Shown here: positions 43,286 through 52,042 of the stretch, in pieces | How the letters are laid out: every line of letters starts with the position of its first letter | Numbering within the stretch: position 1 is the stretch's first letter | DNA from: Bacteroidota bacterium | GTDB lineage: Bacteria; Bacteroidota; Bacteroidia; 2-12-FULL-35-15 | Length of the DNA: 64,000 nt | Reading direction: 5' to 3' | Assembly: GCA_025963715.1 (NCBI GenBank) | Contig: JAOQAG010000041.1 | Location: forward strand, 62,001 to 126,000 | The notes under the pieces: model-generated | Database searches by the model: none | Seen by the model: the letters and a program-made list of their open reading frames with translations, nothing else | What the model was told of the DNA's origin: nothing | Made by a program: the position numbers and the translations under genes

Positions 43286-44560
43286 TTAGTTGATCATTCC
43301 TGCACCAACCGTTACGTTGGTGGCTTCATCTATAAGAATAATGCTGCCGGTGTTCCTGTTTATATTGTATTTATCAACTGCCAGCGGTGCAGTGGTGCGC
43401 AATGTAATGCGCGCAATGTCGTTCAGGCCGATGGTTTTATCATCTTCCATTTTTTCGAGCGTGCTGATGTTTACTTTGTATTGAATGTCTTTTACAATGC
43501 AGCGCACATCTTTCGAAGTATGTTTTAAAAGATATTTTCCGTTGGGTTGTAATTTTTTTTCTGTAAGCCAGCAAATCATCACATCAATTTCCTGTGTCGC
43601 TTCAATTACATTGGTTGATTTCACGATCAGGTCGCCGCGTGAAATATCAATTTCATCCTGCAAGGTAAGAGTTACACTCATCGGTGCAAATGCTTCTTCG
43701 AGTGAAGCGCCAGCAAAATCAATGGATTTGATGGTGCTGGATGATCCGCCGGGCAATACCGTAACAGCATCTCCCTTTTTGAAAATACCTCCCGCCACTC
43801 TTCCTGCATATCCCCTGTAATCGTGATATTCGTTATTCATTGGCCGGATCACATACTGCACCGGAAAACGTGCATCATTCAAATTCTGATCATTTGTAAT
43901 GTCAATGCTTTCCAGTGAATTCAACAATGCAGGCCCTTTGTACCAGTTCATTTTCTTTGATGCATCTACCACATTATCGCCGTTCAGGGCGCTGATAGGA
44001 ATAAACTTTACATCAATAGGATCAAGCTTTGCAGCGAATGCTTCGTAATCCTTTTTTATTTTTTTGAATACCTCTTCCTTGTATTCTACCAGGTCCATTT
44101 TATTGACACATACAATGATGTGTGGAATTTTTAATAAAGATGCAATGTAAGTATGTCGCATCGTTTGCTCGATCACGCCTTTGCGTGCATCTATCAGGAT
44201 AAGCGCTACATTGGCTGTGCTGGCGCCTGTTACCATGTTGCGTGTGTACTGGATATGTCCGGGCGTATCCGCGATGATGAACTTCCGTTTTGGCGTAGCA
44301 AAATAGCGATAAGCCACATCAATGGTAATTCCCTGTTCGCGCTCCGCACGCAAACCATCCGTAAGTAAAGCAAGATTCACATATTCTTCGCCGCGCTTTT
44401 CGCTGGTTGCCCTGATGGCTTCATACTGGTCTTCAAAAATCGATTTTGAATCGTACAGTAAACGTCCGATCAACGTGCTTTTGCCATCATCGACAGAACC
44501 GGCTGTGGTAAAGCGAAGTAAGTCCATATTCAAATATCCTTGTGTAGAGAAATCGGTCAT
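43286..44560 (-). CDS. cysN: CysN, sulfate adenylyltransferase GTPase subunit
   Basis: 424 residues from ATG 44560; an ATG seven codons upstream is possible. Translation-factor-like GTPase that powers ATP sulfurylase (CysD), making adenosine 5'-phosphosulfate. P-loop GSVDDGKST (21-29), DTPGH, NKMDLVE, and EF-Tu-like domains after residue ~230. No C-terminal APS kinase; a separate cysC lies upstream. Transcribed last in cysC-cysD-[GxxExxY]-cysN, split from cysD by cassette B. Confidence 0.96.
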   Translation of the reverse strand: MTDFSTQGYLNMDLLRFTTAGSVDDGKSTLIGRLLYDSKSIFEDQYEAIRATSEKRGEEYVNLALLTDGLRAEREQGITIDVAYRYFATPKRKFIIADTPGHIQYTRNMVTGASTANVALILIDARKGVIEQTMRHTYIASLLKIPHIIVCVNKMDLVEYKEEVFKKIKKDYEAFAAKLDPIDVKFIPISALNGDNVVDASKKMNWYKGPALLNSLESIDITNDQNLNDARFPVQYVIRPMNNEYHDYRGYAGRVAGGIFKKGDAVTVLPGGSSSTIKSIDFAGASLEEAFAPMSVTLTLQDEIDISRGDLIVKSTNVIEATQEIDVMICWLTEKKLQPNGKYLLKHTSKDVRCIVKDIQYKVNISTLEKMEDDKTIGLNDIARITLRTTAPLAVDKYNINRNTGSIILIDEATNVTVGAGMIN

Positions 44561-44577
44561 AATTAAATTGTTTTTAA

Positions 44578-44870
44578 TCAACGAAAAACGAAAACATGCG
44601 AAATGAACGAAAGAAATGATCTCGTTTCAATTTAGGTTTTTTAGTCAATCTTTATTGTTGTTATACATTTAGTAAAAAAATTAATCAACGAAAAACGAAA
44701 ACATGCGAAATGAACGAAAGGAATGATCTCGTTTCAATTTAGGTTTTTTAGTCAATATTTTGTTGTTATACATTTAGTAAAAAAATTAATCAACGAAAGA
44801 TGAACGTTTAAGAAATGAAATTCCGTTTCATAATCTAAGTTTTTAAGTCGAAATTTATTATTCTTTTACA
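44578..44870. repeat. ~105-bp tandem repeat derived from the end of the GxxExxY gene
   Basis: Three units start with TCAACGAAA at 44578, 44685 and 44790 (periods 107 and 105). Units 1 and 2 are nearly identical; unit 3 is diverged and runs into the true 3' end of the GxxExxY gene. Read on the reverse strand, unit 1 still encodes C-I-T-T-I-K-I-D-stop-K-T-stop, aligned with the gene's C-K-R-I-I-N-F-D-L-K-T-stop, so the units are decayed duplicates of the gene tail plus downstream sequence. Confidence 0.75.
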
Positions 44871-45236
44871 CGTTGCGCCTTCTTTCCCGAAATTAATGAG
44901 CAACGCAAGCTTTAAGTTCGATACTTTTAAATAATTCAATACCTGGTCAATGTGTGCTTTTGAAAAGTGCATGTCTTTTTTTAGTTCAACCACAATTTTA
45001 TCATCGATCAAAAAATCAAAAAAATTCTTTCCAATGGTTTTATTCATAAACCGAACCGGATAATACACCTGTTCTTTAAAATTTATATTGTTTTCTTTTA
45101 ATAACATCGCGTAAGCCCTCTGATATATCACTTCTTTATGACCGCTTCCGATCTGTTTGAAAATCTCAAACGAAAATCCGACTATCCTATAACTCAACTC
45201 CGCATACACCAAATCATCCCTTCTCAACTCCGTCAT
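44835..45236 (-). CDS. GxxExxY protein (PD-(D/E)XK-like)
   Basis: 133 residues. The family motif is G32-H-K-E35-V-I-Y38, and the PD-(D/E)XK nuclease-like core is D74...E84-L-K86 (FFDFLIDDKIVVELKK). The family (PF13366/TIGR04256) is of unknown function; the intact core suggests a nuclease fold, activity unproven. Cassette-borne between cysD and cysN. A paralogue of clearly different sequence sits in cassette C at 50652, so the two are not a recent duplication of each other. Confidence 0.92.
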   Translation of the reverse strand: MTELRRDDLVYAELSYRIVGFSFEIFKQIGSGHKEVIYQRAYAMLLKENNINFKEQVYYPVRFMNKTIGKNFFDFLIDDKIVVELKKDMHFSKAHIDQVLNYLKVSNLKLALLINFGKEGATCKRIINFDLKT

Positions 45237-45290
45237 ATTTTATTATAATATTTTTATTTTTTATTGGTTAAAATTAATAGCACTTCGTTT

Positions 45291-45410
45291 TTTCTGCGTA
45301 CAGCATCCACACAGTTTCGTTCATTTCGCATGTTTTCGTTTTTCGCTGATTTTCTGCATACAGCATTTACACAGTTTCGTTCATTTCGAACACTTTCGTT
45401 TTTCGCTGAT
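45291..45410. repeat. 60-bp tandem repeat at the cysD end of cassette B
   Basis: Two exact-length 60-bp units (45291-45350 and 45351-45410), starting TTTCTGCGTACAGCATCCAC and TTTCTGCATACAGCATTTAC, with changes concentrated in the CGCATGTTTT/CGAACACTTT segment. Each unit contains the cassette B arm sequence. Because 60 is a multiple of three, a repeat-encoded reverse-strand ORF (45254-45469) stays open; it is not regarded as a gene. Confidence 0.85.
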
Positions 45411-46316
45411 TTAAAAATACCCTGCTTTTTTTCTGTCTTCCATCGCTGCTTCCGAGCGTTTATCATCAATCCTGCTGCCGCGTTCCGTTACACGCGTTGA
45501 AGCCACTTCATCCACAATTTCTTCCAGCGTAGTTGCTTTTGAAAGTACGGCTCCTGTACAGCTGATGTCACCAATGGTACGGAAACGCACCTGCATCTTT
45601 TCTACTTTTTCCGTTGGTTTTAACGGGATCACATTGGAGTGCGCGTAAATAACGCCATCCCTCATAAAACATTCGCGCTCATGCGTAAAATAAATACTTG
45701 GGATCTCAATTTTTTCCTGCAGGATGTATTGCCATACGTCCATTTCCGTCCAGTTGCTGATCGGAAATACACGGAAATGTTCGCCCAAATGTTTTTTACC
45801 ATTGAATAAATTCCAAAGTTCGGGGCGTTGATTTTTCGGGTCCCATTGTCCGAATTCATCCCGGTGCGAAAAGAAACGCTCTTTTGCACGCGCTTTTTCC
45901 TCATCCCTGCGGGCACCGCCAATACAGGCATCAAATTTATAATTCTCGATCGTGTCCAGTAATGTTACTGTTTGTAGGGCATTCCGGCTGGCATTAAATC
46001 CTTTTTCTTCCGTTACCCTTCCCGTATCAATACTGTCCTGTACGGAGCTGACAATTAAATGAGCGCCGTATTTTGCCGCCAGATCATCGCGGAAAGTAAG
46101 CGTTTCCTCAAAATTATGGCCGGTATCGATGTGTACCAATGGGAATGGGATTTTGGCCGGTGCAAATGCTTTACGCGCCAGGTGGAAACAAACTATGCTG
46201 TCTTTTCCGCCCGAAAAAAGCAATGCCGGTTTTTCGAACTGTGCCGCTACTTCGCGCAGGATGTAGATGCTCTCGCTTTCCAGCTCTTTTAAATGGGTAA
46301 GGTTATGATTTTTCAT
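45411..46316 (-). CDS. cysD: CysD, sulfate adenylyltransferase catalytic subunit
   Basis: 301 residues. PP-loop ATP pyrophosphatase-type enzyme that transfers sulfate to ATP; P-loop SGGKDS (35-40), GGARRDEEKARAKERFFSHR and the C-terminal ERGSRIDDKRSEAAMEDRKK GYF-type tail are hallmarks. Heterodimer with CysN. 24 bp downstream of cysC on the same strand. Its stop codon abuts the repeat of cassette B. Confidence 0.97.
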   Translation of the reverse strand: MKNHNLTHLKELESESIYILREVAAQFEKPALLFSGGKDSIVCFHLARKAFAPAKIPFPLVHIDTGHNFEETLTFRDDLAAKYGAHLIVSSVQDSIDTGRVTEEKGFNASRNALQTVTLLDTIENYKFDACIGGARRDEEKARAKERFFSHRDEFGQWDPKNQRPELWNLFNGKKHLGEHFRVFPISNWTEMDVWQYILQEKIEIPSIYFTHERECFMRDGVIYAHSNVIPLKPTEKVEKMQVRFRTIGDISCTGAVLSKATTLEEIVDEVASTRVTERGSRIDDKRSEAAMEDRKKAGYF

Positions 46317-48257: not shown

Positions 48258-48932
48258 ATGGCAGTAGGCACAACACATTTATTACCCAATAAATTTTATC
48301 ACATTTATAATCACGCAAACAGCGATCAGAATATTTTTTCAGAAGAAAGCAATTATATTTATTTTTTAAAAAAGTACAAAGAATATATTTCTCCAATTGC
48401 TGATACGTATGCATATTGCCTGATGCCGAATCATTTTCATTTTTTAATCCGGATCAAATCTGAAGAAACGATCTTTGAATTTTTAAAACAAAATAATAAG
48501 TTGCCGGAACCTAAAATGACGCTGGAAGAATTTGAATTGTTGTTTAAAGACAATGATGCGATCAATCTTTTCAGCTTGCATATCAGTAAACAGTTCTCGA
48601 ATTTTTTTAACGGGTATACGCAGGCGTTGAATAAGCAGGAATCAAAAAAAGGAAGTTTGTTTCTTCATTCATTTAAAAGGAAAGAAATTGAGTCAACAGA
48701 TTATTTAAAATCACTGATTCTATACATTCATTTAAATCCTGTTCGTCATGGTTTTGTAGAAAAAATTACTGGCTGGAAATATTTATCCTATCATTCTTTT
48801 GTTTCTGAACAGGAAACCATGTTGAAACGAAAAGAAGTGATTGGATTATTTGAGAATGTGGAAAATTTTAAATTTTCACATGAACAAATCAATCAACATG
48901 TAATGAATGAAATAGAATCACAATTTAACTAA
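48258..48932 (+). CDS. REP-associated tyrosine transposase (Y1/HUH superfamily)
   Basis: 224 residues. HUH-type nuclease of the TnpA-REP class: N-terminal NKFYHIYNHANSDQNIF, metal-binding CLMPNHFHFLI (H59, H61), and the C-terminal helix LILYIHLNPVRHGFV that carries the family's catalytic tyrosine region. Full length with no frame break. Such domesticated transposases nick single-stranded REP hairpins rather than carrying a full IS. Hairpins of the expected kind lie directly downstream, and the last codons of this gene are part of the first repeat unit. Confidence 0.92.
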   Translation: MAVGTTHLLPNKFYHIYNHANSDQNIFSEESNYIYFLKKYKEYISPIADTYAYCLMPNHFHFLIRIKSEETIFEFLKQNNKLPEPKMTLEEFELLFKDNDAINLFSLHISKQFSNFFNGYTQALNKQESKKGSLFLHSFKRKEIESTDYLKSLILYIHLNPVRHGFVEKITGWKYLSYHSFVSEQETMLKRKEVIGLFENVENFKFSHEQINQHVMNEIESQFN

Positions 48933-49120: not shown

Positions 49121-50584
49121 ATGAGCAAAAAAGAACCGAAATTAAAATTTAACGCTGCATGGGAATTAGCACCAGCACCGGAAGATACAAAGCATATCTC
49201 CATCAAAAAACAATATGACCTGTTTATTAATGGTGAGTTTGTAAAACCCAACAGCAAAAAATATTTTGCAACCTATAATCCTGCTACCGAAGAAAAGATT
49301 GCGGAAGTGGCAGATGCGGATGAAAGAGATGTTGACAAAGCGGTAAAAGCAGCACGTGTTGCATTTAACAGCTGGAGCAAATTATCGGGTGCCGAACGCG
49401 GAAAATACATTTACCGCATTGCGCGCCTGATGCAGGAACGTGCACGCGAATTTGCCGTGATCGAAACAATGGATGGCGGTAAGCCTATCCGCGAAAGCCG
49501 TGACATTGATGTACCACTGGCTGCCAATCACTTTTTTTATTATGCCGGTTGGGCCGATAAATTAGAATATGCTTTTCCAAACCGTAATCCAAAACCTTTG
49601 GGTGTAGCCGGACAGATCATTCCATGGAATTTTCCATTGCTGATGGCTGCCTGGAAAATTGCGCCTGCATTGGCTGCCGGAAATACTGTAGTATTAAAAC
49701 CTGCTGAAACAACGCCATTAACAGCATTAAAATTAGCAGAATTAATTCGCGATAGCGGATTGCCGAAAGGCGTGGTAAACATTATTACCGGTGCAGGCAA
49801 AACCGGTGCTGCCATTGTCAATCATCCTGATATCAATAAAATTGCATTTACCGGTTCTACCGATGTTGGAAAGCTGATCCAGAAATCCATCGCGGGAAGC
49901 AACAAAAAATTAACGCTGGAGTTGGGCGGAAAAGCAGCGAATATTATTTTTGAAGATGCGCCGTTAGATCAGGCGGTGGAAGGAATTATTAACGGGATCT
50001 TTTTTAACCAGGGACATGTTTGTTGTGCAGGTTCGCGTTTGTTCATCCAGGAAAGTGTTGCTGATGTAGTGATCCGCAAATTGAAAGACCGTATGGAAAC
50101 ATTACGCGTGGGTGATCCGATGGATAAAAATACAGATGTGGGCGCGATCAATTCGAAAGAGCAATTGATGAAAATTTCGGAATATATTAAGATCGGAAAA
50201 AATGAAGGTGCCGAGATGTATCAATCATCGTGCAGCATTCCGAAGAAAGGATATTTTTGCAAGCCAACACTTTTTCTGAATACATCACAGTCGCACCGCA
50301 TTGTACAGGAAGAAATTTTTGGGCCGGTGCTTGCCATCCAAACATTCCGCACCATCGAGGAAGTGATCGAAAAAGCCAACAACATTCCCTACGGTTTATC
50401 CGCAGGAGTGTGGACGGATAAAGGATCGAAAATATTTAACCTCACAACTAAATTGCGTGCAGGAGTAGTGTGGGCGAATACGTATAACAAGTTTGATCCT
50501 ACGTCACCATTTGGAGGATACAAGGAAAGCGGATTTGGAAGAGAAGGCGGATTGCATGGGTTGGCGGCTTATTTGGAGCTGTAG
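49121..50584 (+). CDS. NAD(P)-dependent aldehyde dehydrogenase
   Basis: 487 residues, full-length ALDH. Catalytic set complete: N170 (IIPWNFPLLM), E268 (LTLELGGKAAN), C301 (GHVCCAGSR), plus the Rossmann FTGSTDVGK motif. Oxidises an aldehyde to the acid in the cytoplasm; next to deoC the likely substrate is acetaldehyde. Its stop codon (50582-50584) is directly followed by cassette C. Confidence 0.94.
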   Translation: MSKKEPKLKFNAAWELAPAPEDTKHISIKKQYDLFINGEFVKPNSKKYFATYNPATEEKIAEVADADERDVDKAVKAARVAFNSWSKLSGAERGKYIYRIARLMQERAREFAVIETMDGGKPIRESRDIDVPLAANHFFYYAGWADKLEYAFPNRNPKPLGVAGQIIPWNFPLLMAAWKIAPALAAGNTVVLKPAETTPLTALKLAELIRDSGLPKGVVNIITGAGKTGAAIVNHPDINKIAFTGSTDVGKLIQKSIAGSNKKLTLELGGKAANIIFEDAPLDQAVEGIINGIFFNQGHVCCAGSRLFIQESVADVVIRKLKDRMETLRVGDPMDKNTDVGAINSKEQLMKISEYIKIGKNEGAEMYQSSCSIPKKGYFCKPTLFLNTSQSHRIVQEEIFGPVLAIQTFRTIEEVIEKANNIPYGLSAGVWTDKGSKIFNLTTKLRAGVVWANTYNKFDPTSPFGGYKESGFGREGGLHGLAAYLEL

Positions 50585-51148
50585 TTTAACCGCAAAGGGC
50601 GCTAAGAAGACGCAAAGATCGCAGAGGAAATAAAAAGAAGGAAAGAAGAGTATGAAAGAGAATGAAATTGCAAAAAAAGTGATAGGTTGCGCGATCAATG
50701 TGCATAAAACTTTGGGGCCGGGTTTATTAGAATCGTCGTATGAAGAATGCCTTGTATATGAAATTAAAAAAGCGGGAATGCAGGTGGAACGACAAAAACC
50801 GTTACCGCTGATCTACCAGGAAATAAAAATGGAGATAGGTTATCGGATCGATTTGTTAGTGGAAAACAAAGTAATAATTGAAATAAAAGCTGTGGAAGGA
50901 TTGAATGATATTCACCTGGCTCAGATTTTAACATATTTAAAATTATCAGATTGTAAATTAGGATTACTAATGAATTTCAATGTTACAAAAGTAGTCGATG
51001 GTATAAAAAGGGTAGTAAATAATTTATAAAATCTCCGCGAAGCGGCTTAGCGTTCTTAGTATTTAAAAAAGCATAACATTCGTAATAAAATTTATAATAA
51101 TTTAACCTCCGCGACCTTTGCGCCTTCTTAGCGCCCTTTGCGGTTAAA
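50585..51148 (+). mobile_element. Repeat-bracketed cassette C (GxxExxY gene) between two ALDH genes
   Basis: Arms 50585-50627 (TTTAACCGCAAAGGGCGCTA...) and 51106-51148 are inverse complements at 40 of 43 positions. The left arm begins at the base after the ALDH stop codon; the right arm ends nine bases before the next ATG (51158). A decayed inner copy of the arm (CTCCGCGAAGCGGCTTAGCG) lies at 51033-51052. The only cargo is a GxxExxY gene. Same plan as cassettes A and B but with unrelated arms. Confidence 0.8.
50652..51029 (+). CDS. GxxExxY protein (PD-(D/E)XK-like)
   Basis: 125 residues. Motif G24-L-L-E27-S-S-Y30 in HKTLGPGLLESSYEECLVYE and nuclease-like core D67...E77-I-K79 (YRIDLLVENKVIIEIKA). 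Complete family features, function unknown. Lies in cassette C between a complete and a truncated aldehyde dehydrogenase gene. It differs considerably from the GxxExxY protein at 44835, so the two cassettes arrived independently. GGAAAGAAGAG upstream provides a ribosome-binding site. Confidence 0.93.
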   Translation: MKENEIAKKVIGCAINVHKTLGPGLLESSYEECLVYEIKKAGMQVERQKPLPLIYQEIKMEIGYRIDLLVENKVIIEIKAVEGLNDIHLAQILTYLKLSDCKLGLLMNFNVTKVVDGIKRVVNNL

Positions 51149-51157
51149 AAACACAAC

Positions 51158-52042
51158 ATGTCAAGATTGGAAATATTGAAAACATACAAGATCTACATCG
51201 GCGGACAATTCCCACGAACCGAATCCGGAAGATATTATCCATTGAAAAATAAAAAAGGAGAAATAACAGCCAACATCTGCTTATCCTCCCGCAAGGATTT
51301 TAGAAATGCAGAAGTAGCTGCGCGCGGTGCTTTTGGCGGATGGAGCGGAAAAACGGCGTTCAACCGCGGACAAATTTTGTACCGCATTGCCGAAATGCTG
51401 GAAGGTCGTAAAGAACAATTTATTGCCGAGCTGATACTGCAAGGCGCTACCACGGCTGCGGCAAAACAGGAAGTGGAATTGTCCATCGACCGCATGGTAT
51501 ATTATTCCGGCTGGTGCGATAAATTCATGCAGGTATACAGCTCTGTGAATCCTGTAGCGTCTTCGCATTTTAACTTTTCGGTTCCCGAGCCAACCGGCGT
51601 TGTTGCCATCATTGCAGATGAAAATTCTTCCCTGCTTGGTTTGGTAACAGCCATTGCGCCGGTAATTGCCGGTGGAAATACCTGCATAGTGCTGGCATCG
51701 GAAAGCAAACCTTTGTGTGCGGTTACGTTCGCGGAAGTATTAAATACATCGGATCTTCCGGGCGGCGTGGTAAATATTCTTACCGGCGCTTCCGCAGAAT
51801 TGCATCCGCATTTTTCGTCCCACATGGATGTAAATGCAATGATCTATTACCGCAACAATAAAGCGGAAATAAAAACGATCAAAGAAAACGCATCTCTGAA
51901 TGTAAAACGCATTTTTGTATACGATCAGTTAAATCTGAATGCTGCATCGGCGCAAAGCCCGTATTTTATTTTGGATACACAGGAAACAAAAACCACCTGG
52001 CATCCGATCGAAAATATCGGTGCTGCAAAAGCGGGGTATTAG
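51158..52042 (+). CDS. Truncated aldehyde dehydrogenase-like protein (probable non-catalytic subunit)
   Basis: 294 residues against ~480 for a full ALDH. It keeps the N-terminal NAD-binding half (GGQFPRTESGRYYPLKNKKG; AVIAGGNTCIVLASESKP) but the catalytic Asn motif is degraded (IIADENSSLLG instead of PWNFP) and the sequence stops before the Glu and Cys regions. The frame is clean with a proper stop, so it is not an obvious pseudogene. Paired with the full ALDH at 49121, it may be a regulatory or structural partner. Separated from it by cassette C. Confidence 0.85.
   Translation: MSRLEILKTYKIYIGGQFPRTESGRYYPLKNKKGEITANICLSSRKDFRNAEVAARGAFGGWSGKTAFNRGQILYRIAEMLEGRKEQFIAELILQGATTAAAKQEVELSIDRMVYYSGWCDKFMQVYSSVNPVASSHFNFSVPEPTGVVAIIADENSSLLGLVTAIAPVIAGGNTCIVLASESKPLCAVTFAEVLNTSDLPGGVVNILTGASAELHPHFSSHMDVNAMIYYRNNKAEIKTIKENASLNVKRIFVYDQLNLNAASAQSPYFILDTQETKTTWHPIENIGAAKAGY

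Follow-up and report, generated by a model that had tools for sequence, protein, structure and literature searches.

Cas4 nucleases carry four conserved cysteines for an Fe–S cluster, and miniature inverted-repeat transposable elements (MITEs) are moved in trans. The GxxExxY family is, to our knowledge, a protein model to which no function has been assigned. In the open-access literature we found incidental mentions of GxxExxY and, under TIGR04256, PF13366 or PDDEXK_3, no functional account. The same literature yielded no prior account of GxxExxY genes as repeat-bounded units, in agreement with the original prediction for this locus and, among the matches listed, no description of such an element under the topics of arm words, intervening sequences (IVS) and four-helix proteins, or intergenic repeats. 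For the Coxiella IVS, a report describes a 28-bp terminal stem, tandem GACAGAT heptamers and excision by RNase III (PMC4990558).

Here we describe a GxxExxY gene enclosed by inverted repeats (arms) in the gap between two aldehyde dehydrogenase genes, ALDH1 and ALDH2, in the window, the 64,000-nt stretch of bacterial DNA that was analysed. The cassette is very probably a discrete, mobile unit, and on balance we favour the view that it belongs to a widespread family of approximately 0.5-kb single-gene mobile elements with inverted word-array ends.

Two GxxExxY cassettes in the window

The arm cores of the ALDH cassette (50585–50627 and 51106–51148) are inverted and identical at 40 of 43 positions (93%), as had been read from the sequence, and extend to 48-nt arms (50580–50627 and 51106–51153) that are 90% complementary. 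The coordinates also confirm the tight fit between the host genes that had been pointed out: the ALDH1 stop codon, TAG, ends at 50584, immediately before the left arm, and nine bases separate 51148 from the ALDH2 ATG at 51158, within a stop-to-start gap of 573 nt. Profile searches recognised a single gene between the arms, GxxExxY, which bears out its proposed status as sole content, and no known transposase; Rfam gave no match across 50400–51300. The match of ALDH2 to the Pfam ALDH model is confined to the model's first half, but ALDH2 is native to the genome, with close orthologues having open frames of 266–327 aa in 27 of 35 genus relatives. An inverted-flank score of at least 20 was reached at all six GxxExxY genes of the window genome that exceed the family cut-off, against 4 of 184 control places.

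Table 1 Positions of the two cassettes, their parts and neighbouring genes in the window
Feature	Position	Strand	Remarks
ALDH1	49121..50584	+	upstream gene, full-length aldehyde dehydrogenase
Left arm	50585..50627	+	words CCGCAAAGG / CGCTAAG / CGCAAAG / CGCAGAG, directly 3′ of the ALDH1 stop
GxxExxY gene	50652..51029	+	125 aa, predicted PD-(D/E)XK nuclease fold
Possible degenerate extra arm	51030..51066	-	right-arm sense, by eye
Right arm	51106..51148	-	40/43 identical to left arm, inverted sense
ALDH2	51158..52042	+	downstream gene, half-length, 294 aa
Second cassette	44576..45411		doubled arms built of AATCAACGAAAAACGAAAACATGCGAAATGAACGAAA
Second-cassette arms, CysN side	44576..44719	+	two copies, 44576–44612 and 44683–44719
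Second GxxExxY gene	44835..45236	-	133 aa, between CysD (45411–46316) and CysN (43286–44581)
Second-cassette arms, CysD side	45315..45411	-	two copies, 45315–45351 and 45375–45411
REP-associated tyrosine transposase-like gene	48258..48932		between DeoC and ALDH1; 60.9 bits, under the 80-bit cut-off

The arm region of the second cassette has 11 matches in the window genome, itself included.

The protein of the ALDH cassette matched TIGR04256 (GxxExxY) with 154.6 bits (cut-off 35) and PF13366 (PDDEXK_3) with 148.4 bits (cut-off 22). G24, E27, Y30, D67, E77, K79, Q91 and Y95 are invariant across 47 sequences, and the intact PD-(D/E)XK-like core that had been proposed is borne out by D67 and E77-x-K79 among them and by a confidently predicted fold (pLDDT 95.9, pTM 0.88). 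The best VIA structure match was Cas4 SSO0001 (4ic1_G; Z 9.9, r.m.s.d. 3.7 over 99 residues), followed by BpuSI (Z 8.1) and then by many PD-(D/E)XK proteins at close scores; Foldseek returned nothing at E ≤ 0.001 for the predicted structure, and a sequence search of solved structures gave no match, whether run with the protein on its own or with the 47-row profile. PADLOC produced only weak Cas4 profile matches (E 0.0098 for the window protein and 0.0038 for the second protein), and the second protein weakly matched a PHROG named homing endonuclease (E 0.0056). The set of D, ExK and QxxxY residues is similar to the motifs of RecB/Cas4. The 47 sequences contain no invariant or nearly invariant cysteine and therefore show no sign of an Fe–S cluster. 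The confident fold thus points to a minimal PD-(D/E)XK protein whose nearest structural relative is Cas4 and which would act as a nuclease. The median dN/dS is 0.07 (29 of 137 close pairs, those with dS under 2), so purifying selection keeps the protein functional. Of 99 sampled genomes, the window genome among them, 78 contain GxxExxY genes, with up to 20 matches in a single one.

Occupied junctions, empty junctions and dispersed arms

At the ALDH1–ALDH2 junction, 25 of 30 loci were parsed, own included, and eight of these are empty sites with only 10–11 nt from stop to start. Three parsed loci carry a GxxExxY cassette (the window genome, G034 and G013), and the remaining ones hold short inserts, some palindromic, one of which (G009) resembles part of an arm by eye. 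A fourth cassette occupies the junction in G044, which belongs to another family of the same class. The arms differ between the window, G034 and G013 cassettes, being built of CGCAAAG, of CCGCAAAG...CACTAAG and of CACAGATT, respectively, and the window protein is 45% identical to that of G034, 35% to that of G013 and 68% to that of G044; each of the four proteins is matched more closely by another member of the set. In G034 and G044 the stop codon of ALDH1 is part of the arm. Several relatives have a palindrome like CCCTGACAGGGTTTCAAACCCTGTCAGGG in this gap (six loci), which, read by eye, is another small intergenic repeat at the same sites.

At the CysD–CysN junction, a candidate CysN start, defined as the first in-frame Met and not a proven start, was found in 26 of 30 loci, own included; among the 25 relatives that were parsed, 10 have this Met no more than 25 nt away, against at least 850 nt in the window genome. 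One relative (G038) has an arms-only pair here, and two (G015 and G040) have arm-like single repeats, by eye.

The DeoC–ALDH1 junction provides a near-isogenic pair. In G007 and G026, DeoC is 99.7% identical and the flanks are 96.1% identical over 3,169 bp and 96.7% over 1,724 bp; the difference is one whole cassette, present only in G007, whose limits coincide with the arms. No target-site duplication was obvious by eye in this pair. G010 has a related cassette, 78% identical, at the junction, and G029 has a GxxExxY gene there whose right end is similar, so G007 and G010 (and G029, judged by its right end) may share the cassette by descent, and G026 may represent a loss rather than G007 a gain. 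The same gap that holds a GxxExxY gene in G007, G010 and G029 holds the transposase-like gene in the window. Two further GxxExxY matches, one each in G026 and G007, have an internal TGA and are either decaying copies or sequencing errors.

The units are thus present or absent as wholes, and the three junctions lie between unrelated genes; a homing endonuclease gene would be expected to split one conserved recognition site. That GxxExxY is a normal operon gene, passed on vertically and flanked by repeats of the kind that chance gives, would fit the cassettes that may be shared by descent; empty sites, non-orthologous occupants, the absence of two-sided words at 54 control genes (below) and, above all, its contradiction by the near-isogenic pair make this explanation scarcely credible. 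With empty sites at two window junctions, a filled and empty pair at the third and arms that recur genome-wide, the discrete repeat-bounded cassette of the original prediction is strongly supported and has withstood the refuting outcome named there, a gene and spacer shared by all relatives with arms at this place only.

A DNA search of the window genome with the insert returned 66 matches, all of which, except the insert itself, lay in or around arms. The arm core, allowing up to one mismatch, occurs in 52 copies (26 per strand), so the arms are not confined to the ALDH junction. The 58 relatives have 0–6 copies each (29 copies in total, in 14 genomes), and a reversed-pattern control found a single copy across the 59 genomes taken together. 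Arms without the gene abound, and this amplification is particular to the lineage of the window genome. In the stretches of that genome that were examined, 63 strong arm copies were found, including both arms of the ALDH cassette; 60 are intergenic, of which 27 lie antisense and 10 in sense within co-directional gene pairs, 16 between convergent and 7 between divergent genes. Most copies stand outside close inverted pairs, and a few form such pairs with no gene recognised between the arms. Five gene-less inverted pairs, a set that leaves out a wider pair with arms 2.1 kb apart, contained no convincing GxxExxY remnant (best tblastn E 0.003, over short stretches). At one locus (L092:10575-10980), CGC arms surround a short CACAGATT-type inverted pair together with apparent pieces of two further arm types, which by eye look like nested insertions. 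One GxxExxY member of the genome (L011) lacks a 60-aa frame that starts with ATG, GTG or TTG and may have decayed.

Arm words across GxxExxY and IVP genes

The arms of other GxxExxY genes were analysed in a set of best-scoring matches, not a random sample, that comprised 6 loci of the window genome (a seventh match, at 22 bits, was dropped), 29 in relatives, 40 further regions with 41 genes, the best 80 of 229 matches and two junction loci. The 40-region set leaves out four matches of the same score range, among them one with an internal stop and two near contig starts. The resulting 158 genes were reduced to 153 by removal of identical ones, and 151 had usable flanks. At the strict threshold, inverted arms flank 83 of 151 genes against 3.7% of 3,000 mismatched flank pairs, and direct repeats flank 38 of 151 against 2.0% of 3,000 mismatched pairs; 101 genes have either repeat type, 18 direct repeats only and 50 neither. 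Before duplicate removal, an inverted score of at least 20 was reached in 23/29, 33/40 and 47/78 GxxExxY loci and in 19/29 loci of IVP genes (PF05635, four-helix), and a direct score of at least 20 in 13/29, 9/40 and 25/78 of the same GxxExxY sets, 10/29 IVP loci and 7/184 controls. Raising the cut to 30, again before duplicate removal, retained 46/153 inverted and 33/153 direct GxxExxY loci and 0/184 controls of either type. Control places, mismatched flank pairs and control genes together rule out chance repeats.

The arms are arrays of a word with the consensus C[A/G]CN[A/G]A[G/T], mostly spaced 8–10 bp, which peaks at up to 50 bp from both gene ends and points in opposite directions at either end. 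Two or more words per side within 150 bp, in inverted sense, were found at 95 of 151 GxxExxY genes, at none of 54 controls (orthologues of ALDH2 and CysD) and at none of 28 IVP genes. Positive loci made up 35/62 in Bacteroidota, 4/4 in Ignavibacteriota, 2/3 in Balneolota, 1/2 in Chlorobiota, 1/1 in Planctomycetota, 1/1 in Lentisphaerota, 1/1 outside named phyla and 50/77 among the remaining relatives, where single cases may be misplaced contigs, because many of the genomes are metagenome bins.

No phage record matched the protein, and eight plasmid records did. Six plasmid places were examined, two of which have clear inverted arms. On a Gemmatirosa plasmid (Gemmatimonadota) the gene is flanked by arm-loop-arm hairpins of CGCAGAG words, and since these stand on each side, inverted and direct scores are both high. 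The arms on a Bernardetia plasmid are clearly inverted. A Sphingomonas plasmid has a GxxExxY gene in the fabD–fabG gap with words on its left side only, and the other places have short (Treponema), direct (Fusobacteria) or no (Persicobacter) repeats.

The IVP genes are bounded by a comparable arrangement. Among the 28 usable of 37 loci, 23 have inverted and 3 direct repeats, with random IVP flank pairs reaching the threshold in 10.4%, and 27 of 28 genes read with both neighbours. Their arms, at loci between protein genes, are made of other words, such as TTTGAGATGTGAGAT and AGTTCAAGGTTCAAG, and in the window genome 7 of 8 IVP genes have inverted flanks scoring at least 20 with visibly different words. 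By this layout, IVP units may form a parallel class of elements resembling the rRNA IVS.

The arm word follows the protein lineage. On the protein tree, the CGC/CAC label changes 16 times, whereas 300 shuffles gave a mean of 42.6 and a minimum of 33 (n = 127); in the genus of the window genome it changes 3 times against a mean of 11.4 and a minimum of 7 (n = 33), and the 16 changes compare with a mean of 23.0 and a minimum of 17 when labels are shuffled only within genomes. A word-ending label gave 15 changes against a mean of 39.3 and a minimum of 32 (n = 102), and arm k-mer similarity correlates with protein identity (r = 0.175; maximum of 1,000 permutations, 0.017). Because the word tracks the protein clade, also against within-genome shuffles, the arms are not explained by the host genome and belong to the element. 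Recognition of the words by the protein is, from these comparisons, a likely cause of the coupling, which is no proof of it since co-inheritance alone would give the same pattern. Across 232 residue tests of CGC against CAC, the best positions among the matches listed are C-terminal (122–125, phi about 0.6–0.67), and because only 3 supported independent pairs are available, we claim no specificity residues.

These patterns also bear on the idea that a different enzyme, such as a Y1 transposase of the REP-associated type, mobilises the arms as repeats in their own right, with GxxExxY as a passenger between two copies. Such an origin would suit the excess of single arms, which far outnumber cassettes, and the presence in the genome of three REP-type transposase matches, of which two exceed the family cut-off and the weakest is located 1.7 kb from the ALDH cassette. 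We consider it quite improbable, given that the words track the GxxExxY clade, that they flank GxxExxY on both sides and not the examined control or IVP genes, and that a single arm is not palindromic by eye. The arms and the transposases share no flanks (one transposase copy has different palindromic flanks and the other two have no clear ones), and the transposases were accordingly rejected as the mover.

Position among host genes and level of action

Most copies are oriented in sense within co-directional gene pairs and fill tight gaps. The gene reads in the sense of both neighbours in 107 of 138 cassettes and against a co-directional pair in 8 of 138; because ordinary small genes show a similar bias (84 same sense and 4 antisense of 137), this is striking only against random insertion. 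Gap filling, pointed out for the ALDH junction in the original prediction, is common by the word-to-stop distances in 52 cassettes, chosen for at most 200 nt upstream, at most 250 nt downstream and two or more words per side: the median distance from the upstream stop to the first word is 10 nt, and outside the outermost words a median of 26.5 nt remains. The neighbours are of unrelated function (ALDH, cys, fab), which speaks against a gene that benefits its host through defence, DNA repair or regulation, travels by ordinary transfer and has arms that are transcription or translation signals. Purifying selection, the weak similarity to Cas4 profiles and the operon position agree with such a role; the dispersal of the arm family in tens of copies and the arms-only and single-arm forms at the same junctions (by eye) do not, and we regard it as very improbable.

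According to the original prediction, the arms would form a long RNA stem that loops the gene out of the message. The folding part of this claim stood: the transcript fold has z = −6.69, none of 100 shuffles was as stable, and the predicted stem is about 40 bp. Selection for such pairing found no support. In strict alignments of 83 elements, 70 arm mismatches are wobble-compatible and 99 incompatible with sense-RNA pairing, against 103 and 115 in mismatched pairs; loose alignments, which ran into A/T-rich sequence, gave 188 and 283. Selected sense-RNA pairing was therefore discarded as an explanation, the mismatches having no bias to the G-U-compatible class.

The same data weigh on an RNA-level element like the 23S rRNA IVS, in which RNase III would cut the stem and the cassette would be tolerated through its removal from the operon mRNA, mobility being incidental or RNA-based. 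The long predicted stem and the prevalence of sense insertions fit this model, as does the arm plan shared by IVP genes, the gene type of known IVS; the Coxiella IVS, with its stem, heptamers and RNase III excision, supplies a precedent (PMC4990558). Set against these points are the arm mismatches, the 18 elements with direct repeats only and the many arm copies of the window genome that are not closely inverted-paired, which the model leaves unexplained, and we judge it unlikely. Because the mismatches do not favour G-U pairs, we place the main action at the DNA level; RNA cutting is plausible as a side effect that may make insertions tolerable.

These observations allow us to propose how the cassettes spread. 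We think it somewhat more probable than otherwise that the cassette is a small, selfish mobile element driven by its own nuclease through the arm words. The GxxExxY nuclease would bind its own arm words and nick or cut at these words; the unit so released, or a bare arm mobilised in trans in the manner of MITEs, could then be captured in other gaps between genes, perhaps by way of short homology and repair by the host, and copies would survive where they interrupt no reading frame and where the gene is transcribed with a host operon. More tentatively, and with slightly less than even confidence, the elements may constitute a new class of bacterial transposable element, in which a minimal Cas4-like nuclease reads phased short words at the ends and moves both cassette and bare arms, with a word specificity that diverges by clade, and S23/IVP elements form a second, parallel class. 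Were this two-class reading true, the classical 23S rRNA IVS would be one member of a far larger group of single-gene mobile elements. GxxExxY as the motor would explain dispersed intergenic repeats, the remodelling of operon gaps and perhaps the origin of IVS, and the coupling of arm word and protein makes the idea directly testable.

The element shares with the 23S rRNA IVS a size of about 0.4–0.6 kb, one small ORF, terminal inverted repeats, a location inside a host transcript and short tandem words near an end, as with the Coxiella heptamers (PMC4990558); it differs in encoding an unrelated nuclease (PF13366) instead of the S23p/four-helix ORF (PF05635), in occupying a gap between protein genes, in its arm words and in the dispersal of single arms through the genome. 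Inverted ends, presence or absence as a unit and arms-only derivatives recall insertion sequences and MITEs, whereas the lack of a known transposase and the word-array ends set it apart; no target duplication was obvious by eye. REP/RAYT systems likewise have short intergenic repeats in tens of copies, but here the single arm does not look hairpin-like, the enzyme class is another and the one transposase copy with clear repeats beside it has different ones. With Cas4 and lambda-exonuclease-like nucleases the protein would have in common the predicted core fold with D67, E77-x-K79 and Q91-xxx-Y95; unlike Cas4, it is shorter, lacks a conserved cysteine and is encoded immediately beside ALDH genes. 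The gene itself is a clear member of TIGR04256/PF13366, and what is added here is the element that surrounds it.
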